Origin: Fodinicurvata sp. EGI_FJ10296
GTDB lineage: Bacteria; Pseudomonadota; Alphaproteobacteria; DSM-16000; Inquilinaceae
DNA: 64,000 nucleotides
Assembly: GCF_040712075.1 (NCBI RefSeq)
Contig: NZ_JBFCVL010000009.1
Span: 124,001-188,000 of the forward strand
Reading direction: 5' to 3'
Under the pieces are notes generated by a model that made no database searches, had not been told where the DNA came from, and was given only the letters and a program-made list of their open reading frames with translations. How positions within the stretch are numbered: position 1 is the stretch's first letter; each line of letters starts with the position of its first letter. Position numbers and translations under genes: made by a program. Positions 5,743 to 16,049 of the stretch are shown here, piece after piece.

Positions 5743-7398
5743 CTATTCGCCCAGCGTGATCGGCCCGTGCCAGGGATAGGCGTCGCCCGGGCCCGGATTG
5801 GCCGCCGGGCTGTGGCCGCCCAGATGGGCGGTCACGCCCCACACCGCATTCAGGGCCGTTTGCACCGCGCCCTCGACCCAGGCCGGTGTCCAGCTGATGC
5901 CGTCGCCGGCCAGGAACAGGCCGCGCTGTTCCGGCGGCATGCCGTCCTGGTGGAAATGGCCGAACATTCGGTGGTTGTAACGATAGTGGCCGGGCAGCGC
6001 GCCCTTGAACGCGCCGAGGAAATTCTCGTCGGCCTCCCAGCTTACCGAGATCGGGTCGCCGATAATATGCACGCGTATGTCGAGGCCGGGGTAGATTTTT
6101 TCCAGCGCCGAAAGCGTCAATTCGACCCGTCGTTCAACCGGTTGCGGCATCATCTTCAGGGCGTCCGACATCCACGAATAGCTGAGGCAGATGACACCGG
6201 GCTTGCCGGGACCGTTGTCGAACAGATAGGTGCCGCGCGACAGCCGGTCGGTCAGCGTCATCGACATCAGATCGCGGCCGGTTTCGGGATCCTTGTCCTT
6301 CCAGAACGGCCGGTCGACCATGACGAAGGTCTTGGATGACTGCATATAGCGGGTGCGGTCCATCGCCATCCAGGTTTTCTGGCTGATCAGGCGCTCCTCG
6401 GTCTCGATCGCCGTGGTCAGCAGCCAGCTCTGACAGGTGGCGATAACAGCGTCGAAGGATTCCGTGCGTCCCCAGCGGTCGGTCACGGTCAGGCGATCGT
6501 CGTCGGCGCGAAAGATGCGCCGGACGCCGGGACGCGGCGCGCCGCCGTTCAGCCCCGCCAGGGTCGTTCCCGTCGGCCAGTAGACGGCATCGTCCGGGGC
6601 CCGGCGCCACAATCCCTGGGGCACCTGCTCGACGCCGCCAACGATCAGGTGCTGGTCCTCGTCGCATTCGGTGGCGTTGACGCGCAGGATCTCCAGCATG
6701 CTGTTGGGAAAATCGGAATCCCAGCCGCCGGTGCCGAACCCGACCTGGCCGAAAACCTCGCGGTGGCGGAAGCTCAGCGCCTGAAAGGCATCCGACGATG
6801 CCACGAAATCATAGAAGGTCCGCTCGTCCCAGTCGCGCACGATCGGATTCCAGATCTCCTTGACCCGGTCGGCGTCGCGGTCGCGGATGGCTGCCTTCAG
6901 ATCCGAGAATCGCGCGCCCTCCTCAAGCGCCGCGTCATAGGCGTGGGCGACCTCGCGGAACAGCGGCGGCAGGTCTTCCAGCGTTTCGGCATAGTGCGTC
7001 TCGCCCTCCAGATCGATCACCGTCGACCCCGCCGCCGGCGTGAGCGGATTGGGGAACGGCGCGGATTCCAGCCCGAGCATATCAACATAGTGATAGAAGG
7101 CCCGTGACGACCGCGGAAAGCGCATGCCGCCCAGTTCGGCCACGATTCCGTCGGTGCCCTCGAACGGCTGCGAGCGAAGGCGGCCGCCGAGTTCGCCGGA
7201 TTCGAACAGGATCGGGCGCAGCCCCAGACGCATCAACTCGTAGCCGGCGACGATGCCCGCGATGCCGGCGCCGATCACCGCGACACGGCTGCCGTGCCTT
7301 TCCGCCGGAATTTGGCCCAGCCCCGCCGGATTGGTCAGCCAGTCGTCATAGGCGAAAGTGAAGTCGGGGCCGAAGACGGAGAACGGCTTTTCGGTCAT
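5743..7398 (-). CDS. davB: L-lysine 2-monooxygenase (FAD-dependent)
   Basis: A 551-residue flavoprotein of the amine-oxidase fold. It converts L-lysine with O2 to 5-aminovaleramide, CO2 and water, the first step of the aminovalerate route. The FAD site VIGAGIAG is at residues 41-48, followed by FESGELGGRLRS and LGGMRFP. The N-terminus (FGPDFTFAYDDWL) and internal blocks such as GFGTGGWDSDFPNSMLE and DRTRYMQSSKTFVMVDR agree closely with my recollection of Pseudomonas putida DavB, as does the length. It lies 58 bp downstream of davA on the same strand. Phenylalanine or tryptophan 2-monooxygenase is the main alternative, but the partner amidase favours lysine. Confidence 0.88.
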   Translation of the reverse strand: MTEKPFSVFGPDFTFAYDDWLTNPAGLGQIPAERHGSRVAVIGAGIAGIVAGYELMRLGLRPILFESGELGGRLRSQPFEGTDGIVAELGGMRFPRSSRAFYHYVDMLGLESAPFPNPLTPAAGSTVIDLEGETHYAETLEDLPPLFREVAHAYDAALEEGARFSDLKAAIRDRDADRVKEIWNPIVRDWDERTFYDFVASSDAFQALSFRHREVFGQVGFGTGGWDSDFPNSMLEILRVNATECDEDQHLIVGGVEQVPQGLWRRAPDDAVYWPTGTTLAGLNGGAPRPGVRRIFRADDDRLTVTDRWGRTESFDAVIATCQSWLLTTAIETEERLISQKTWMAMDRTRYMQSSKTFVMVDRPFWKDKDPETGRDLMSMTLTDRLSRGTYLFDNGPGKPGVICLSYSWMSDALKMMPQPVERRVELTLSALEKIYPGLDIRVHIIGDPISVSWEADENFLGAFKGALPGHYRYNHRMFGHFHQDGMPPEQRGLFLAGDGISWTPAWVEGAVQTALNAVWGVTAHLGGHSPAANPGPGDAYPWHGPITLGE

Positions 7399-7456
7399 TC
7401 AGGTGGTCTCCGGGAAGCATGAAGGGGTGGCGAATAAGGTTGGGCGGGATGCGGCG

Positions 7457-8236
7457 TCAGCGATAAAGGTCCGGACGCCGGTCGGCAAGATGCGTGGACA
7501 TCGACCGCACTTCGGCCAGTGTCGATTTCGAGAGATCGGCGACGATCAGCGCCGGATCGTTGGCGGCCCGTGCCAGATCGTTGCCATCGGGGCCGCAGAT
7601 GCACGACAGGCCGCAATAGTCGAAGCGGCCTTCGGGGCCGCAATAATTGGCGTAGGCAACATAGACGGCATTCTCCTCGGCCCGGACGGGGACGACCCGG
7701 TTGGCGATGCTGACAAAGGGCAGCATGTTCGCCGTCGGCACCAGGATCGCCTCGACTCCCTGAAGCGCGAAATGGCGCGCCACTTCGGGAAACTCGATAT
7801 CGTAACAGATCGCCAGCGACACCCGCCAGCCGTTCAGGTCGACCGGTTGGGCCAGCGCATCTCCGGGTGTGAATTGTGACCGGTCGACATCGCCGAACAG
7901 ATGGGTTTTCCGGCAGACGCTCAGACAGTGCCCGCCGGCATCGATCAGGGCGGCGGCGTTGTACGGCTTGCCCCGGCCGGCACATTCGGGGAAGCCGGCG
8001 ACGATGGCGATGGCGTGCCGCCGGGCGATCGACGCGACGGCCGTCATTATCGGGCCGTTTACGGCTTCGGCGCGTTCCGCCACCTTGGCCGGGCCGATGT
8101 CATAGCCGGTCATGCCCATTTCCGGCGTCACCAACAGCGCAGCGCCAGCCGATTTCGCCTGGGCGGCAAGGGCGTCGAGCCGGGCGAGCGGGTCGGCGTC
8201 ACCGGGCGGCGTCTGCTGGGCGAGGGCAATGCGCAT
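7457..8236 (-). CDS. davA: 5-aminovaleramide amidase (carbon-nitrogen hydrolase)
   Basis: A 259-residue nitrilase-superfamily hydrolase with the Glu-Lys-Cys triad: Glu in TPEMGMTGYDIG, Lys in CRKTHLFGDVDRSQFTPG, and Cys in ICYDIEFPE. It hydrolyses 5-aminovaleramide to 5-aminovalerate and ammonia, taking over the product of DavB, whose gene follows 58 bp downstream. Motif text and length are very near Pseudomonas DavA. The davT and davD genes that finish the path to glutarate are not in the window. A sugar kinase gene ends 47 bp upstream on the same strand, so the three could share a transcript. Confidence 0.87.
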   Translation of the reverse strand: MRIALAQQTPPGDADPLARLDALAAQAKSAGAALLVTPEMGMTGYDIGPAKVAERAEAVNGPIMTAVASIARRHAIAIVAGFPECAGRGKPYNAAALIDAGGHCLSVCRKTHLFGDVDRSQFTPGDALAQPVDLNGWRVSLAICYDIEFPEVARHFALQGVEAILVPTANMLPFVSIANRVVPVRAEENAVYVAYANYCGPEGRFDYCGLSCICGPDGNDLARAANDPALIVADLSKSTLAEVRSMSTHLADRRPDLYR

Positions 8237-8283: not shown

Positions 8284-9168
8284 TCAGGAGCGGCCGACTA
8301 TGCGGTGGGCGAGAATGAGGGCGCCGTCGACGCCATCGCCGAGGGCCGGGGCCAGTGTGCCTTGAATGGCCGCTGGAAGAAACGGAGTCAATGGATCCGC
8401 AAGGCCGCCGACGATCGACAGCCGTTCGGCACCCGCCGATACCAGCCGGCTGGCCATGAGACCCAGCATGCGGCCGCTGTCCCGCAACAGGGCTTTCGCG
8501 GATGGATCGCCCGCGGCGGCGGCATCGACGACCATTGGTGCCATGGTCGCATAATCGCCGGGGCCTGCCCGGCTGCGGAAAGCCACCACGGCCTCTGGAT
8601 CGCCGCGAAATCGGCCCATGACCGCCCGCGCCAGCGTACCCTCCGGCCGCAGCCCGTCATGGGCCAGAAGTCCTTCGCGCACGGCTTCCAGCCCCAGCCA
8701 TGCCCCGGACCCGTGATCGGAAATCGGAAAGCCCCAGCCGCCGATCCGCGTCGTGCGTCCGCCAACCATGGCCACGGCGATGCTGCCGGTGCCGGCAATT
8801 ACAATACCGCCATCGCCGCCGTTATGGGCGCCCAGGCAGGCGGCTTCGGCATCGCTGGCGAGCGCGCGCGACCGGAACGGATGGGCCAGCGTTTCGGCGC
8901 GGCGCCGTTCCCGGCTTTGGCCCAGACCGGCCAGCGCGATACCGGCGACGGTACGGTCCAGCGTTTCCCGCGACAGGCCAGCCTGCTGCAGCGCGTCGTC
9001 GCACAGACCCATCACGGCGCCCCAGGCGGCGACGGCGTCCGTTGCCATATTGGCCGGCCTCCCGGTCGCGGTGCCGAGCAGCCGGCCCGATCCGTCGACG
9101 AGGCGCGCGCGCGAGCCGCTGCCGCCGCCGTCGATGCCGATATAGATCCGGCGATCACTGTTGGTCAT
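8284..9168 (-). CDS. BadF/BadG-type amino-sugar kinase (GlcNAc/GlcN/MurNAc kinase-like)
   Basis: The 294-residue protein is an ASKHA-fold ATPase of the BadF/BadG/BcrA family: phosphate-1 motif IGIDGGGSGSRARL at residues 9-22, a VIAGTGSIAVAM phosphate-2 segment, the GGWGFPISDHGSGAWLG block typical of glucosamine and N-acetylglucosamine kinases, and a C-terminal adenosine motif (SIVGGLADPL). Clostridial MurK of this family phosphorylates both MurNAc and GlcNAc, so a role in feeding MurQ (about 7 kb away) is plausible but inferred. Start ATG 9168 gives the family-typical N-terminus; the ribosome site is weak. Confidence 0.8.
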   Translation of the reverse strand: MTNSDRRIYIGIDGGGSGSRARLVDGSGRLLGTATGRPANMATDAVAAWGAVMGLCDDALQQAGLSRETLDRTVAGIALAGLGQSRERRRAETLAHPFRSRALASDAEAACLGAHNGGDGGIVIAGTGSIAVAMVGGRTTRIGGWGFPISDHGSGAWLGLEAVREGLLAHDGLRPEGTLARAVMGRFRGDPEAVVAFRSRAGPGDYATMAPMVVDAAAAGDPSAKALLRDSGRMLGLMASRLVSAGAERLSIVGGLADPLTPFLPAAIQGTLAPALGDGVDGALILAHRIVGRS

Positions 9169-9284: not shown

Positions 9285-12200
9285 TCACAGATCGATATCG
9301 GCTTCCTCGGCTTCCCCGGGTTCGTCAGGTGCGGCCGTGCGCTGGATCTCGGCAAGCTTGCGGTCGAATAGCCAGACGACGAGCGCGGGCCCCTCCTGGT
9401 CGCGGTCGACGATTGTCGCAGTCACTACGGGGCCACACCGATCGGGATCCTGCATCTGGTATGATGGAAGTCCGTTTCGGTCTTTCGGCCAGCCGAGTTC
9501 GTACCAGAATCCGGGCCGAAGCGCCCTGCTGTCGCGCTCAAGCCGCTCGATATCCGAGGGGCTCAGCCGGGGCGCGTCCCTGCTGCTGTCGCTGCTGACC
9601 GTCGACATGCCGCCACAGAAGTCACCCTGATCCTCGCCCGGGGGCAGCAGGCCCCACAACATGTAGCGATCTTCTTCATCCAGCGAGGGCGGGCCGTATT
9701 TGGATTCCAGCGATCTGCGCAGACCTGCCGGCGTCGCCTGTTCCGGCGTCAGGTCCAGCCGCCGCATGATCCCGATGATCGGCTGCGCGTCGATCCCTGC
9801 GGCATAAACTCCCACGATGGCCTCGTTGGTGTCGGGCTGCAAAAGGCCGACGGCGGTGCCGAACAGCCCCTCAGCCGGTCTTTCGGGTTCGAACAGAACC
9901 GCACCGGGCAGTCTTTCGCGGACTGTGGCGAGAAAGTCTTCAAGCGGCATGCCCAATGTCAGGCCCACCACATCGAGCGCCTGCGGCGGGGTTGCTACGG
10001 GAACCGCCCAGTCTTCCGGCTCCAGCCGGTCGAAGTACCTGACTTCGTCGGAATTCTCCCGCTGGTGGCCCGTCGCCGCGATCGGGGTTGTTGACAGCGT
10101 CACCACGCCAACGAGGCCGGCGCCGTCTCTTTCCGCCGGGGTGATGGGGGAAAAGGCCGCCGATTCGATCTCGGCGATATAGGTCGCGCTCGTGAACCGC
10201 ACGCTGGGTTGCAGCGTCGGCTGCGCCCTGATTCTCACAAGTGCGTCCGCATAGCCCGCATTGCTCAACTCGGTGATAATTCTTCGCGGTTCAGCCTGAC
10301 GGGGTACGTAGCCGCACGTAGCAGGCGTCCCGATGCTTGGCCGTCCTTGGGATATCCACACACGGTCTGGTCCGGCGCGCGGTGGCCAGTTGCCGCCGAA
10401 GCGGAGTGCCTCGTCGGGTATGGCCGCGTCTGCCATGAGGCTTGTGACATTGTCATAGGCGGCGACGCGGCGGCTACCGATCGCGTTCGAGATGATTTGC
10501 GACAATCCGTGGCATCCGGTTTCGGGATGCATGAACTGCCCGAAACCGAGCGGGATCGCGACTTGCGATGGCAGATTGGCCGCGCGGGCGCGTGTCCAGT
10601 CCCGGAAAACCGGCAGAAGGCGCGCTAATTCCGGCTCGGTCAGGGGCAGAGACGGATTATCGAAAAACCGCCCCCACTCCACCGAAACCGGAAGCTCCGC
10701 ATTCTCCGGCTCGCCTGCAAGACTGCGCTCCTTGAGCAGACGCTCCACAAGCATCCGCGTGTAGGCGGTATCGTCATGGGCCTCGGGCGCGAGACTGACC
10801 GCGAGCAGGTCGAGGCCTTCGTGGTCGAGCATCAGGACATCCGGCGGCAGGATATCCGGTGTGGTACCGTTTGCCGGGCCCAGTTCCGGCGGTGCCGCGA
10901 TCATGAACCGGTCATCGTCGGTCAGCGGCCAACCGGAGCCTGTTGTCGTGCCGAGCATGAGTTCGATCGGGGCGGATATCACCAGAACCGGCTCGTGATC
11001 ATCCTCTGCGGCCGCCACGGGGCGGACGCGCGCATGGCTTGCCAACTCCATCCCGTCCCGCGAAGCCGCGCTTTCAAGGTCGAGATAGGCCTCGAACGTG
11101 TCTCGCTCAGCCGGATCGATTCTGACGACCTCGTATCCGAAGGATTGTTCGCCAACCAGCAGGGGAGCACGGATCCCGGAAATGTCCTGGTTGTGCGCCA
11201 CCGGGTCGAACGACACGGATTTGACCGGATAGCCCCCTGCGGCCTCGTCATATGCCTCCAATTGCCACCATGCCCCGACCCAGTAGTCGTCCCGCGCAGA
11301 CGCGATCACCTCGTCCGTGAGCGACGCGTTAAGCCGGGCGCGCTGACCTTCCGGCGCGCGGGCAACCTCGCGCAGATCGCCGACGACTTCGGACACGAGG
11401 TCGCGGCCGCCGGGGAGCCGGCCCATGGCGCCAAGCAGCGACTTGCCTGTCGTGGCGTAAAGCTCTTCCGGCAAGAGATTCGGACCCGCTTCGTCTTCCG
11501 CGGCGGGTTCGACCACAACGGCAATCGGGACCGTCATTTCCGGATCGGCGAAAACCGTAACGCCGTCAATCCTTGAGATGAGGCGGACGAACCCGAGTTC
11601 TTCAGGGAGGATTGGCCCGCTTCCCCTTGCGCGGACCGCAGCGTCCGTCAGGGTATAGTCGATCGCGACGAACAGTGTTCGCGCCATCTCGGTGCGGCGC
11701 TCCAGTTGGGACAGGAGTTCGATTGCCTCGGTCTCGGACATAGGAAGAAACGCGGGGACCAGACCTTCGACCTCGCGACCGGTCAGTGGGTCCCGGGGCA
11801 TCCAGCTTCCATTCTGTCCGCGAAGCGGGAAACCCTGGAGCGTGAAATCGTAGTCGAGAAGGGTTGCCCGGGCCACATCGCGCACGGGTAGTGGCAGCAC
11901 CGGCATCCGTGCGGAAACGACCGCGCGCAATCCCGGCTGTGCGTCGGCGAGGACGGATCGGCGTTCGAGTTCATTCATGTTGTCCGGCTCGGTCAGAAAT
12001 TCGACCGGGAACAGCTCATAGGTCTCGCGTTCGGTGAGAACATGCCGTCGCATGATCTGTGCCGCCTCGGGGCTGAACGGGCGCTCTTGTCCGGCGGCGA
12101 GAATAGCCCCGAAGCCAAGTGCGGTCTCGATCGTTCGCGTCAGGGAGCCCGTGCCGAGCAGCCCTGTCGACGCGCCGACCGCCCGCCCCTGAAAGGAATT

Positions 12201-13550
12201 GACGTCCCATTCGGGCACATAGCGGCCCGCACTGATTCCGCCGCCGAAAACCGAAACCATGCCCTCGGGGCCCGTCGGCCCCGGCCCGCCGGACGGGATG
12301 GCGCTGTCCTCAGCGCCGGACCAGCTGGCCAGTATTCGATCCGGCTCGGGCACGAATTGCCCGTCGACACGGCGTTCGGTCCGCCTTGCGAGTGTGGCGG
12401 ATTCGATCTGCCCATCTGCCGAAATCCCGCGAAGAGCGCCGCCCCGCACATCGGCGATGGGGTTCGACATCGTCAGCAGGACACGGACGACCAGCCTGTC
12501 CCTGACGGCGTTTCCGCGCTCCAGGTCCGGCCTTGAAAACTGGTCAGGCAACGGAAGGAAGAACGGACGGCTGCTCATCCATCGGAAATTGGCGCCCATG
12601 CGGTTCCAGTTCAGATTGATCGCAGTCAGCGCATGCACGCCGTCAATTTTTGTGCCCACGGTCGATAGCACCAGTCCGCGACCCTCAGACGAATACAGCG
12701 AAGCGGGAAACTCCAGCGCGATCCGCGACGGTGCCGGCAGGTCTCGGTAATGGTCCGATATCGCCCTCAAAAATGCTTCATATTCGGGGCCGCTACCGGG
12801 CCTTTCCGGCGCCTGCGGCGCGTCAGGCGCAAAGTCGATCTGCCACGAGTTCCAATGGTAGCGCTGACTTGAAGCAAGTTCCGGAAACTGGCCGAGCGCC
12901 CACCCGAAAAGCGCCGCCTGCACGGCCTCATTCCCTTCCACCACCGCCGTAGCATTCTCATTTCCGACCGTCACGTCCGTGCCCGTGTTATTTCCAACCG
13001 TCACGTCCGTGCCCGTGTTATTTCCAACCGTCACGTCCGTGCCCGTGTTATTTCCAACCGTCACGTCCGTGACGGGGGCCTGAACCGCGCCGCCCGGCAA
13101 TTGCGGCTGCGCTTCCGTCAAAAGTTGCGGTGGCTGGTCCCGTGGTGACTGCTGATCTGAGGCTATGGAGATGCGCAGCGATGTCGCGCGCCCAGAGGTC
13201 CCGAAAACCTCCACGAGGATGGGTATTTCCCGCTCACCAAGAATGGCCCGCACCGCCGCAGGATCGGCAGAACCGTTCGCAAGCAGCCCCGCCAGTTGCG
13301 CGCGATCCTGTGGTGTGGCGAAGGTCCGGTCTTGTGTGTCTCCCGATTGCCGGATGCCGAACCGGTGAAAATTTGCCCGGTCCTGTGTCAGGATCTGCGC
13401 CGGCTCGCCAAGAGCCACCCCCGAAGAATTGAAACGGTCCTGCTGTCCGATAACAGCTACGTAGCTGTCAAGAAGGTCCTGTGCCGCCACCGGAGAAGAG
13501 ATGGCAACAGCCAGACAGAGAATGCCGAAAAATCTGTAGGTGATTGCCAT
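9285..13550 (-). CDS. Unrecognised 1421-residue exported protein with DVTVGNNTGT repeats
   Basis: A very long protein with a clear signal peptide (MAITYRFFGILCLAVAISS, cleavage probably after PVAAQ). ATG 13550 is chosen because GAGGA lies 7 bp before it; an ATG 6 bp further up is too close to that site. A linker near residues 160-197 carries the ten-residue unit DVTVGNNTGT in tandem. The rest is proline-, glutamate- and arginine-rich with many short beta-like stretches, no transmembrane segment after the signal, and few cysteines. A C-terminal block (GLTLGMPLEDFLATVRERLPG ... ESKYGPPS) looks like a separate small module. I recognise no catalytic motif. It starts 23 bp after the M15 peptidase gene, so both are likely one transcript and both products exported. 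Confidence 0.8.
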   Translation of the reverse strand: MAITYRFFGILCLAVAISSPVAAQDLLDSYVAVIGQQDRFNSSGVALGEPAQILTQDRANFHRFGIRQSGDTQDRTFATPQDRAQLAGLLANGSADPAAVRAILGEREIPILVEVFGTSGRATSLRISIASDQQSPRDQPPQLLTEAQPQLPGGAVQAPVTDVTVGNNTGTDVTVGNNTGTDVTVGNNTGTDVTVGNENATAVVEGNEAVQAALFGWALGQFPELASSQRYHWNSWQIDFAPDAPQAPERPGSGPEYEAFLRAISDHYRDLPAPSRIALEFPASLYSSEGRGLVLSTVGTKIDGVHALTAINLNWNRMGANFRWMSSRPFFLPLPDQFSRPDLERGNAVRDRLVVRVLLTMSNPIADVRGGALRGISADGQIESATLARRTERRVDGQFVPEPDRILASWSGAEDSAIPSGGPGPTGPEGMVSVFGGGISAGRYVPEWDVNSFQGRAVGASTGLLGTGSLTRTIETALGFGAILAAGQERPFSPEAAQIMRRHVLTERETYELFPVEFLTEPDNMNELERRSVLADAQPGLRAVVSARMPVLPLPVRDVARATLLDYDFTLQGFPLRGQNGSWMPRDPLTGREVEGLVPAFLPMSETEAIELLSQLERRTEMARTLFVAIDYTLTDAAVRARGSGPILPEELGFVRLISRIDGVTVFADPEMTVPIAVVVEPAAEDEAGPNLLPEELYATTGKSLLGAMGRLPGGRDLVSEVVGDLREVARAPEGQRARLNASLTDEVIASARDDYWVGAWWQLEAYDEAAGGYPVKSVSFDPVAHNQDISGIRAPLLVGEQSFGYEVVRIDPAERDTFEAYLDLESAASRDGMELASHARVRPVAAAEDDHEPVLVISAPIELMLGTTTGSGWPLTDDDRFMIAAPPELGPANGTTPDILPPDVLMLDHEGLDLLAVSLAPEAHDDTAYTRMLVERLLKERSLAGEPENAELPVSVEWGRFFDNPSLPLTEPELARLLPVFRDWTRARAANLPSQVAIPLGFGQFMHPETGCHGLSQIISNAIGSRRVAAYDNVTSLMADAAIPDEALRFGGNWPPRAGPDRVWISQGRPSIGTPATCGYVPRQAEPRRIITELSNAGYADALVRIRAQPTLQPSVRFTSATYIAEIESAAFSPITPAERDGAGLVGVVTLSTTPIAATGHQRENSDEVRYFDRLEPEDWAVPVATPPQALDVVGLTLGMPLEDFLATVRERLPGAVLFEPERPAEGLFGTAVGLLQPDTNEAIVGVYAAGIDAQPIIGIMRRLDLTPEQATPAGLRRSLESKYGPPSLDEEDRYMLWGLLPPGEDQGDFCGGMSTVSSDSSRDAPRLSPSDIERLERDSRALRPGFWYELGWPKDRNGLPSYQMQDPDRCGPVVTATIVDRDQEGPALVVWLFDRKLAEIQRTAAPDEPGEAEEADIDL
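12961..13072. repeat. 30-bp coding tandem repeat
   Basis: Three full 30-bp units and a 22-bp partial unit, almost identical apart from one base in the first, run in frame inside the giant exported protein and encode the DVTVGNNTGT units. The near identity of the copies points to recent slippage expansion; copy number may differ between strains. Confidence 0.95.
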
Positions 13551-13573
13551 GTTCATTTCCTCTTGGGCGACAG

Positions 13574-14440
13574 TCAATCACGATCTAGGTTAGTAACAAT
13601 TCGGCTATATAGAATCAGTTCAGGTCGATACTCGAAATGCATTCCGTCGAAATGGTGCCATTTCCCGCCCCAGATAAATCCGTAACGCTCCATCGTCCTG
13701 ACCAGTGCCTGGGGAATTTCATTGTTGTAAGTGGGAACGGCTCCTTGCCTCGCGCCCGTCCATTGCCAGTACTTGCCGATGTCGGCATTGACGTCTATGG
13801 CGATTCCGAAGCTGTGGGTGCTTAGCCTTGATGTCCCGCTTATCACGCGCCAGTTGAACCCGCCTCCGGCGCCCCGGAACACGGCGCGGTAATCTTCGCC
13901 CGATGCCGCCAATTCCGCGAGCGCCGCCCTGAATTGGCAGGAGACGTTTCTTTTTCGGGTAACCTGGAAGGGCCGATCGGATAAAGCGGGTTCGAGCACG
14001 TCGTCCAGACTTGCGCGCGCAGCGTTCTCGTCGGCGAAATAGAGAGCATTGAAGAACGGTCCGTTGCGCAGACGACCCGGATCGAAAAATGGTTCTTCGC
14101 GAAGCGACAGATCGAAGTCCAGGGGGTAGCGATATTTGAATTGCTCGCGGATTGTCGGATCGCGCAGCGCCGCATCGGCAGGGATATCGCGAATTTCGCC
14201 TAAATCGAACCAATTCTGCCCGTCGAATGAGACTGCCGTGCCGCCGGGCGATACAACGATGTCTGTATAGGCAAGCCGCAGTGCGTCAAGCTCCGCCACT
14301 TCGCTTTCCCGCGGCGTTTCGATGGCGAGATAATCCGTTACCTGGCACGCTTCAGCTTGCAGGCTGGCGAAGCAGACAAGTGTTATTGTTTGCAGAAATA
14401 AGTTGGTATTTGTCAGAGACGGCATGAAGAGATTGTCCAT
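13574..14440 (-). CDS. Exported M15-family peptidase (VanY-like D-Ala-D-Ala carboxypeptidase fold)
   Basis: The 288-residue protein carries a signal-peptide-like N-terminus (hydrophobic stretch LFLQTITLVCFASLQAEA) and the zinc-ligand motifs of M15 peptidases near the C-terminus: STHSFGIAIDVN (SxHxxGxAxD) and KWHHFDGMHFEYRPE (final His ligand and catalytic acid). Such enzymes cut peptidoglycan stem peptides or similar D-amino-acid bonds. The N-terminal 130 residues do not resemble the minimal catalytic domain. Two starts are possible, ATG 14440 or ATG 14425; neither has a strong ribosome site. It lies just upstream of the giant exported protein gene and directly after an AT-rich stretch, suggesting a shared, perhaps acquired, unit. 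Confidence 0.82.
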   Translation of the reverse strand: MDNLFMPSLTNTNLFLQTITLVCFASLQAEACQVTDYLAIETPRESEVAELDALRLAYTDIVVSPGGTAVSFDGQNWFDLGEIRDIPADAALRDPTIREQFKYRYPLDFDLSLREEPFFDPGRLRNGPFFNALYFADENAARASLDDVLEPALSDRPFQVTRKRNVSCQFRAALAELAASGEDYRAVFRGAGGGFNWRVISGTSRLSTHSFGIAIDVNADIGKYWQWTGARQGAVPTYNNEIPQALVRTMERYGFIWGGKWHHFDGMHFEYRPELILYSRIVTNLDRD

Positions 14441-14706
14441 TCTAATTTTCGCGGGCCATCAATTGAAAATTAAGGACAGAAAACTAACAATATTTTCATA
14501 AATATGCGAATTTTAGTGCGGAAATAGAGATTCTTACTATATATCTAAAGTTATTATGCTGGCCCGAATGATCGATAATCAATTGATAATATGGGCAAAA
14601 AATATACCCCATTTGGATATGGGTGATGGGACGGTTGCCGCATTTTTTGATTGCCGGGATGCGATCGCCGATGTCGGCGGCGTCCCGATTATGTCAGGAA
14701 CTGCCG
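14441..14706. other. AT-rich intergenic stretch
   Basis: This 266-bp gap, especially 14450-14650, is visibly much richer in A and T than its surroundings. It must hold the promoter of the M15 peptidase gene, although I cannot fix -35 and -10 boxes. ATCAATTGA occurs twice (14458 and 14578). Composition suggests a boundary of acquired DNA or an H-NS-like target, but no mobile element is visible. Confidence 0.6.
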
Positions 14707-15882
14707 TCAGGGCGGCGCTTCATCGTCGGGATAAAGCAGTATCGCGGTCCGGTGTCGGCGGAAATCGGTGGCCTGAATGCGCCAGGTTTCCAGGACCTCG
14801 TCGGGATCGGCGCCGTGCAGGAGAATCCGGCGCGCGTCGTCGCCACCGCTGAGCCGCTCAAGGAACGCCGAGGCCGTGACGTCGTCCGGCGCCAGCCGGG
14901 CGATCGCCGCGAAAAGCCTGACGACGAGCGCAATCGGATCGGCCCGCCGCCGATCGGCGATGTGCAGCGCGATGCCGCCGCACAGGACACCCTGATGTTT
15001 GAAGAACGCCGGACGAAACGTGATCGGCCAATGATCGATGCCAACGAGAGGCGTTTGCGCAAGTTTGTCGTTCAGCGCCTCGCCGGACAGAAATGGCGCT
15101 CCGACGGTCAGAAACGGGCGCGTGGTGCCGCGCCCCTCGCTGATATTCGTGCCTTCGAAAAGGACGGTCCCGGCATACCCGAACGCCGTTTCACTGGTCG
15201 GCAGGCCGGGCGAGGGCGGCATCCAGATGGCGTCGGCGGGGCACGGATTGCCCTGCCAGTCGCAGCGTATTACGGTCGGTGGCGCATAGTCGCGCTCGCG
15301 GGCATCGCGCATGGCCATTTCGCCCATGGTCAGGCCGTGGCGTAGCGGGACGTTCATCGGCGCGACAAAGGCGGTTCGTTCATCGGCGAGGCCCGGCCCG
15401 GCGGCTGTTCGGCCAAGTGGGTTGGGGCGGTCGAGGACGATCGCCGGTACGCCTGCTTCCGCGGCGGCGGCCGCGACACCAAGCATGGTTGCAGAAAAGG
15501 TATAGGCCCGGCATCCGGCATCGGGCAGATCGATCACGACCGCATCCAGATCGGCCAGATGCCGCTGCTCCGGGCGGCGGCGGGGGCCATAGAGGGATAT
15601 GACAGGCACGCCGTCATCACCGGCGCTGTCGCCGCCCGATTCGCCGGGATCGAGCGTTCCTTCCAGCCCGTGTTCCGGCGAGAACAATCGCGCCACGGTC
15701 GCCCCGGCCTCTGCCAGCACCGTGTCGGTGCGGCGCCCGAGCGCCGGCCGCTTTCCGGGTCCTGTGCCGGAGCCTTCGAGGCTGCGCGAAGCTGCGGTCG
15801 TCACGACCCCGATCCGGCGACCGGTGACGAGATCGCCCCAGGCGTCGGGCCGGTCCAGCGCGGCATGGGCCCAGTCCGCCAT
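14707..15882 (-). CDS. namZ: NamZ-like exo-beta-N-acetylmuramidase (DUF1343)
   Basis: A 391-residue DUF1343 protein with the family blocks RLFSPEHGLEG, DLPDAGCRAYTF, LDRPNPLG, PMNVPLRHGLTMGEMA, WMPPSPGLPTSETA and FEGTNISEGRGTTRPF. The founding member, Bacillus subtilis NamZ (YbbC), removes MurNAc from the non-reducing end of peptidoglycan fragments. ATG 15882 follows a good ribosome site (GGGAGAGG). No signal peptide is seen at this or the longer start, so it may act in the cytoplasm on imported fragments, unlike the exported Bacillus enzyme. It is divergent from murQ by 167 bp, giving a compact recycling locus. Confidence 0.85.
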   Translation of the reverse strand: MADWAHAALDRPDAWGDLVTGRRIGVVTTAASRSLEGSGTGPGKRPALGRRTDTVLAEAGATVARLFSPEHGLEGTLDPGESGGDSAGDDGVPVISLYGPRRRPEQRHLADLDAVVIDLPDAGCRAYTFSATMLGVAAAAAEAGVPAIVLDRPNPLGRTAAGPGLADERTAFVAPMNVPLRHGLTMGEMAMRDARERDYAPPTVIRCDWQGNPCPADAIWMPPSPGLPTSETAFGYAGTVLFEGTNISEGRGTTRPFLTVGAPFLSGEALNDKLAQTPLVGIDHWPITFRPAFFKHQGVLCGGIALHIADRRRADPIALVVRLFAAIARLAPDDVTASAFLERLSGGDDARRILLHGADPDEVLETWRIQATDFRRHRTAILLYPDDEAPP

Positions 15883-16049
15883 AATGCCTCTCCCAATCCA
15901 GATCCCTGCAACCGTCTGCTGTGCAGCAAAAACGATAGACCGCATTGCGGGGATACGTAAACACGTTGCGCGCGGTGGCGAACTGCGCTTCCCTCTGGGC
16001 TTGCAACCGGGTTCTACCCCGAATCTCTTCCGCGACAGGACGTTACACC

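Follow-up and report, generated by a model that had tools for sequence, protein, structure and literature searches.

A compact head domain, exchangeable with YARHG, links a giant protein to a predicted M15 peptidoglycan peptidase in alphaproteobacteria

Introduction

The stretch of DNA analysed here (the window, 64,000 nucleotides of contig NZ_JBFCVL010000009.1 of Fodinicurvata sp. EGI_FJ10296) carries a gene for a putatively exported M15-type peptidase (13574..14440, minus strand, 288 amino acids (aa)) and, 23 bp behind its stop codon and on the same strand, the ATG of a gene for a putatively exported giant protein of 1421 aa (9285..13550, minus strand; ATG at 13550, stop at 9285, the longest open reading frame (ORF) over it beginning at a TTG at 13577). 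What does such a giant do beside a peptidase, and which part of it belongs with the enzyme? The original prediction had taken the two genes for an exported unit, with a giant of unrecognised type that could be an envelope partner or a substrate; coordinates, ORFs and the Peptidase_M15_4 match agree with the pair as it was described. We find that the N-terminal domain of the giant, for which the name QDRAN was coined here from its most conserved stretch, or the YARHG domain (PF13308) in its place, is tied to the peptidase, and that the giant as such is not.

Results and Discussion

The M15 type is linked to QDRAN or YARHG

A scan of genome contigs with a three-sequence M15 alignment gave 357 relatives, the best 80 of which, all used, provided the M15 loci considered here (L018-L097). 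QDRAN and YARHG were called at these loci by profile scans of six-frame translations, and taxa were taken from record titles. QDRAN was found beside 29 loci and YARHG beside 24, neither was found at 27, and no locus had both. Among the 61 alphaproteobacterial loci there were 29 with QDRAN, 23 with YARHG and 9 with neither, i.e., 52 of the 61 carried one of the two, and the 19 loci outside Alphaproteobacteria gave one YARHG and 18 with neither. The partner domain was at most 445 bp away from M15, and the adjacency was retained although the gene order differs: QDRAN shares the strand of M15 in all but 2 loci, which are convergent, and lies downstream of it in 14 and upstream in 13. Four of the genomes behind the 23 YARHG loci were checked, and no QDRAN was found anywhere in them. 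A more distant M15 relative, on a Deinococcus actinosclerus plasmid (L016, 36% identity, no QDRAN match), lies next to a pair of short, uncharacterised genes that share its orientation.

On an M15 tree (IQ-TREE, 83 rows), 18 changes suffice for the six partner classes, versus 48 for shuffled labels, and QDRAN versus YARHG (32 and 24 rows) needs at least 9, as counted by parsimony on the best tree, some branches of which are weak. Nestings were observed on starred branches: the QDRAN loci L026 and L027 fall inside a caspase-YARHG group, L034 (QDRAN) goes with L029 (a YARHG-headed giant), and G020 (QDRAN) with L097 (caspase-YARHG). A motif of the type R-N or R-A-N followed by G had suggested that QDRAN might be a diverged YARHG; this was rejected, given an hhalign probability of 0.4%, at which no sequence relation was found, and the strands modelled in QDRAN. 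YARHG has been described as an all-helical bundle (PMC3848476), a fold that the predicted QDRAN strands would not fit, and the Pfam scans did not detect YARHG in the window giant or in those QDRAN proteins, standalone or tandem, that they covered. The best reading of these data is that QDRAN and YARHG would be unrelated modules exchanged beside this M15 type.

The two modules come in several forms. QDRAN may stand alone (~135 aa), come in two tandem copies (L042, L045, L047, L058) or sit at or near the head of giants; in the giant of L020, an LprI-like stretch (by eye) precedes it. YARHG has the same place beside M15, either as a standalone, putatively exported protein (L061) or leading a giant (L029, L040). 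In 13 loci a caspase-like stretch (PF00656) lies directly upstream of YARHG and M15; it shares a reading frame with YARHG in 11 of these loci, while L025 and L031 have the two in separate frames (the Pfam checks covered L025, L032 and L048). In PADLOC, a caspase model is matched by the caspase-like partners of L032 and L048. YARHG also terminates further proteins encoded upstream of M15, in Aurantimonadaceae and in L089 of Mucilaginibacter, and in L063 (= L149) it is the C-terminal part of a trypsin-like, putatively exported protein (by eye) that is convergent to M15. One caspase-YARHG protein of Bradyrhizobium is described in PMC3355149, whose main text does not contain the term M15; what is added here is the link of such putatively exported proteins to the M15 gene. 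As side observations, two or three successive caspase-like stretches lie upstream of M15 in L025, L041, L043, L048 and L049, and in L040 the M15 gene and the YARHG-headed giant are preceded closely upstream by a frame of 755 aa (L040:2712-4976) that has both DUF6636 and PG_binding_1.

The association was also followed at the genome level, in 248 genomes of one family, a sample that is centred on the L021 genome, itself found through M15, and that overlaps the 80 loci (G397 = L021, G400 = L055, G404 = L048; G546 and G494 hold the L040 and L063 proteins). QDRAN was present in 37 of these genomes, the M15 type, defined by E 1e-20 or better, in 15, and both in 12. In other words, QDRAN was found in 12 of the 15 M15-type genomes versus 25 of the 233 without M15 (Fisher p 7e-9, kinship not corrected). 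Within ~1.5 kb, nine of the 15 M15 genes had QDRAN, four YARHG and two neither. In three of the joint genomes (G400, G494 and G546), M15 and QDRAN are on different contigs or 223 kb apart; G494, the genome of L063, is one in which a QDRAN gene lies ~223 kb away.

QDRAN is a compact domain that also occurs on its own

QDRAN covers residues 24-135 of the giant (13146..13481, minus strand), i.e., its first ~110 mature residues, and is a compact domain, homologous to standalone proteins, predicted to be exported, and to the heads of other giants. In an alignment of 34 rows, numbered on the 112-residue row of the window, 14 columns are invariant, including D15, N18, S19, Q33, R35, D48, D51 and R60, and D34, N37 and H39 are nearly so. 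The AlphaFold (AF2) model is confident (pLDDT 94.4, pTM 0.87) and of the alpha/beta kind, with strands at 2-10, 87-95 and 98-106, i.e., an N-terminal strand and a C-terminal hairpin. No convincing match to this model was found in the PDB by Foldseek (best E 0.58) or by VIA (best Z 3.4, root-mean-square deviation (rmsd) 4.0 over 76 residues) or among the viral structures of BFVD (best E 0.39), nor to the QDRAN profile among PDB sequences (best E 0.14). This lack of a structural match does not show that the fold is new.

The independence of QDRAN was observed repeatedly. Residues 11-118 of the giant were found in G020 as a small separate protein with a putative signal for export, 39% identical and tail to tail with an M15 relative. 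A plasmid search with the giant matched 63 records, and 19 of the 20 matches listed cover only its N-terminal part, the other being the Pseudooceanicola algae record treated below; standalone QDRAN proteins were seen on the Rhizobium, Sinorhizobium and Maritalea plasmid records opened, and another in Sulfitobacter. On a plasmid of Paracoccus seriniphilus, QDRAN heads a 1273-aa protein whose gene comes immediately after that of an M15 peptidase with 46.6% identity to the one in the window. In an even sample of the class of the window, QDRAN was found in 3 of 385 genomes, that of the window included; QDRAN is rare outside a few groups.

Several candidate identities were discarded. Pfam gave no family above cut-off, and NCBIfam no row, for the QDRAN proteins scanned, whether standalone or tandem, and the sub-threshold Pfam rows (DUF4179, 0.1; DUF632, 0.066; DUF4130/RP-C, ~0.02) were dropped as mutually unrelated. 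L005 proved a chance match, since its open frame holds two stops. A phage origin of QDRAN was rejected because the standalone protein of L026 was unmatched in the phage collection and the best viral structure was the one at E 0.39; in PHROGs there was nothing for the L026 protein or the giant, and the tandem protein of L042 gave weak rows (best E 6e-4), with no stretch passing alone. An anti-phage defence system was likewise rejected, PADLOC giving no match for the M15 peptidase or the giant of the window, the L026 QDRAN protein or the L029 giant.

The giant is a chimera and as such is not tied to the peptidase

Behind QDRAN, the giant has an in-frame linker of DVTVGNNTGT repeats (12960..13071, minus strand; a tandem array with a 30-bp period, 3.7 copies and 98% match, just as had been noted), which leads to a long body (10017..12938, minus strand, approximate limits) that is predicted to be mixed alpha/beta and has recurring YDxxxxxFP-like motifs. 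The C-terminal domain (9288..10016, minus strand) has, in a 13-row alignment, two invariant Cys and a KYG motif, and ends in ADIDL. The giant is thus a chimera that joins QDRAN, the linker of repeats, the body and the C-terminal domain, because the N-terminal domain stands alone elsewhere and a relative of the body exists without it: a 1537-aa protein of Pseudooceanicola algae matches residues 491-1414 (27.7%, E 4e-51) and has neither a QDRAN domain nor an adjoining M15 gene. The original prediction had seen no recognised domain in the giant, which stands insofar as no Pfam or NCBIfam family reaches cut-off, but it had missed that the N-terminus is a domain of its own. As read from the predicted secondary-structure string and the motifs only, the body may be built of repeating units (AF2 mean pLDDT 71.5, pTM 0.41). 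The best Foldseek row for the body had E 0.07 with probability 0.03, and VIA gave for the C-terminal domain a best Z of 5.5 (4ifa, rmsd 4.2 over 114 residues); values of this size are common, and no fold is assigned from them.

The M15-giant pair is kept in the same order and on the same strand in P. seriniphilus and in 12 of the loci (L019-L024, L028, L036, L052-L054, L057). The conserved pairing that had been named as support for a system was found, and this conservation argues that the pair is a unit; the giant is best viewed as an envelope partner. Nothing in the sequence or in the relatives speaks for the giant as a substrate of the peptidase. However, the giant is not an indispensable partner of M15: its C-terminal domain was detected in 10 of the 248 genomes, in some weakly (E up to 9e-4; two weak carriers, G471 and G626, were not opened), and 8 of these 10 carriers lack the M15 type. 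The objection that had been named against a unit, homologues of the giant found widely without the peptidase, holds in part for the giant and not for its head domain.

The head domain discriminates between the giants. Fifteen giants in which the body or the C-terminal domain was recognised lie beside M15, 13 of them among the 80 loci and the other two in the window and in P. seriniphilus (L019 has QDRAN and neither of these parts, and was left out). All 15 carry QDRAN (13) or YARHG (2), versus none of the eight giants not seen beside M15 (Pseudooceanicola, G219, on whose contig only 340 bp upstream of the giant are visible, and six others; Fisher p 2e-6). This comparison bears on the view that QDRAN and YARHG would both bind peptidoglycan in parallel with M15, the genes clustering through common wall work and the modules having no direct action on the enzyme. 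In its favour, the body and C-terminal domain are homologous to a superfamily of giants headed by PG_binding_1 or LprI that exists without M15, and the partners often hold other wall-linked modules: PG_binding_1 or LprI was above the Pfam cut-off in 7 of the 11 M15-linked giants scanned (L013, L019, L023, L029, L036, L053, L057) and absent from the other four (window, L021, L028, L040). Yet the giants found with only PG_binding_1 or LprI heads were not beside M15, while all 15 M15-adjacent ones have QDRAN or YARHG, a specificity that is unexpected of generic binders, and we consider parallel binding rather unlikely.

Some minor features of the giants were also recorded. They end in a hydrophobic-x-[L/F] tail (DIDL, DMDL, KIDF, EIKL) in 16 of 18 cases, that of the window being at 9288-9302, and the pattern has an interior frequency of 3.6% in four giants. 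The motif misses L019 and L057, whose reading frames seem to stop early; among giants without M15, the tails of L162-L165 fit, that of L167 (PKL) does not, and L166 is split over two frames. Such a tail can be likened to a processing signal or to a PDZ ligand. In Rhizobium sp. SL86 the giant is interrupted at L020:11197-12300, where a transposase-like ORF of 367 aa lies that by eye is of the IS110 kind, and the giant of L052 is split over two frames.

The peptidase probably cuts stem peptides

With 73.5 bits against a curated cut-off of 25, the M15 product belongs to Pfam Peptidase_M15_4 (PF13539, E 2.1e-20), the match spanning residues 202-271, approximately the catalytic domain. In an alignment of 25 rows of relatives, H209, D216, D265 and H268 are invariant; they lie in the motifs SxHxxGxAxD and DxxH, which we take to provide the zinc ligands and the catalytic acid of M15_4. 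The N-terminal part, of ~175 residues, has an invariant DPGRxR motif in the same rows. The N-termini of M15 and of the giant read as Sec-type signal peptides, so that both products would be exported, in accordance with what had been proposed.

Cutting of either cross-bridges or stem peptides had been considered for this enzyme. The catalytic region aligns weakly with 2vo9, a Ply500-type enzyme (E 0.7), and stem-peptide cutting is the likelier of the two because the DxxH signature is common to M15 and that enzyme; cleavage of cross-bridges is the less likely activity. The window M15 is like the Ply500 / CwlK-type L-Ala-D-Glu endopeptidases in the match of the catalytic region and in the positions of the His, the Asp and the DxxH, and unlike them it has a predicted signal peptide, the N-terminal part of ~175 residues and an adjoining QDRAN or YARHG gene.

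The enzyme also resembles endolysins, since it matches PHROGs lysis families, and this fits the idea that QDRAN or YARHG would be an inhibitor or immunity factor that blocks a dangerous periplasmic M15 until it is needed, fusion to a giant or a protease serving to anchor the inhibitor or to couple its removal. The partner gene is separate and never fused to M15 in the loci seen, as with inhibitors, and the standalone QDRAN proteins are small and, by their N-termini, exported. On the other hand, 21 of the 30 QDRAN loci listed are without M15 within ~1.5 kb, 3 of the 15 M15-type genomes lack QDRAN (two of these have an adjoining YARHG), and the end of a protease, where YARHG is found, is an odd site for an inhibitor. 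An inhibitor is accordingly an unlikely, if serious, alternative.

A partner module that may act in trans

Wall hydrolases that work with an exported partner encoded separately are known from other systems, EnvC with amidases and Ivy with lysozyme being envelope pairs of hydrolase and activator or inhibitor. The M15 loci may be alike in this respect, by analogy; the class of the enzyme differs, no homology is claimed, and the M15 partner has two unrelated forms. What we infer most strongly is that QDRAN and YARHG would serve this M15 in the same way, since one of the two is enough and both stay adjacent to it despite changes in order, strand and fusion. For YARHG, binding to peptidoglycan was proposed in PMC3355149, and PG_binding_1 or LprI in 7 of the 11 M15-linked giants scanned likewise speaks for a role at the wall.

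We tentatively propose, giving it a little less than even weight, that QDRAN and YARHG work in trans with M15, by docking or targeting, and that the giant of the window provides a large scaffold for the module. M15 would be an exported peptidoglycan peptidase, probably a stem-peptide cutter, and the giant a large periplasmic scaffold, probably associated with the wall, that bears its partner module QDRAN. The module could dock the enzyme or present peptidoglycan to it, and would thereby set where or when M15 cuts; elsewhere it would act as a standalone protein or, as YARHG, often ride on a caspase-like protease.

Several points weigh against this proposal. In 9 of the 61 alphaproteobacterial M15 loci (L018, L033, L055, L059, L060, L069, L085, L092, L096) neither module is nearby; the whole genomes of the first five were checked, and QDRAN was present elsewhere in four of them and nowhere in that of L033. 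Conversely, M15 was within ~1.5 kb in only 9 of the 30 QDRAN loci listed for the 37 genomes, L115, L120 and L126 among the 21 others being cut by contig ends, and as most QDRAN loci are without an adjoining M15, QDRAN must also work without one. As no sequence relation joins QDRAN to YARHG, their shared job is drawn from context only. The structure models are single chains, so contact between QDRAN and M15 lies outside the predictions. Finally, since the window giant, L021, L028 and, YARHG apart, L040 are without a recognised peptidoglycan-binding domain, the term wall-associated is taken from other relatives.

A bolder version, which we regard as improbable, is that QDRAN and YARHG are interchangeable keys, so that any carrier (small protein, giant, caspase-like or trypsin-like protease) controls M15. 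If it were true, the caspase form would be a periplasmic switch from caspase to wall lysis and, among marine alphaproteobacteria, a candidate mechanism of programmed lysis, and the giant form would replace the switch by a mechanical or positional scaffold.

The linkage offers a functional context for QDRAN, a domain unnamed in the libraries searched, and for YARHG, which its describing paper called "in search of a function". One enzyme beside either of two apparently unrelated domains is a testable lead to the control of exported wall hydrolases in alphaproteobacteria and to the role of bacterial caspase-like proteins in the periplasm. Among the titles and abstract openings listed on YARHG, M15, metacaspases and LD-endopeptidases, neither a QDRAN partner, nor an exchange with YARHG, nor a tie of M15 to caspase-like proteins was found.

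Genomic context of the pair

In the window the pair adjoins, as had been pointed out, muropeptide-recycling genes. They encode the exo-N-acetylmuramidase NamZ, AnmK, a kinase of the BadF type and a SIS-domain protein resembling MurQ, and form a cluster for recycling N-acetylmuramic acid (MurNAc). NamZ (14707..15945, minus strand; Pfam NamZ_N and NamZ_C) forms the upstream flank and the kinase (8284..9168, minus strand; Pfam BcrAD_BadFG) the downstream flank, both outside the unit. The gap between NamZ and M15 (14441..14706, minus strand) is AT-rich, with a GC of 0.402 versus 0.636 for the window, and is likely the promoter region of the cassette; it has one sigma-70-like match on the minus strand, a count not above chance. 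The M15 gene has a GC of 55%, and the giant gene and the whole window have 64%.

The flanking genes make the locus comparable to NamZ / MurNAc-recycling clusters. In G009 (locus L170), a genome of the same family, NamZ abuts the kinase with no M15-giant pair between them, which resembles an empty site. NamZ was also matched in one further genome of the family, G008, whose locus showed no kinase. M15 and the giant were absent from all 16 same-family genomes searched. These data fit a pair inserted as a cassette, and with such signs of insertion a functional link of the pair to MurNAc recycling is no more than possible.

Insertion raises the further explanation that M15 and its partner hitch-hike on a mobile cassette, their adjacency coming from joint transfer and not from joint function. 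The patchy distribution would agree with it (M15 type in 15 of 248 genomes, neither gene in the 16 relatives of the window, the pair on a plasmid in P. seriniphilus), as would the apparent insertion between NamZ and the kinase and the AT-rich 5′ end. However, arrangement and fusion partner vary repeatedly while the adjacency persists, and the genome-level co-occurrence holds, G400, G494 and G546 having both genes far apart, so that hitch-hiking is very improbable as against a partner module of M15. Beyond the kinase, on the same strand, the window has genes for a flavin amine oxidase and a carbon-nitrogen hydrolase (5743-8236).

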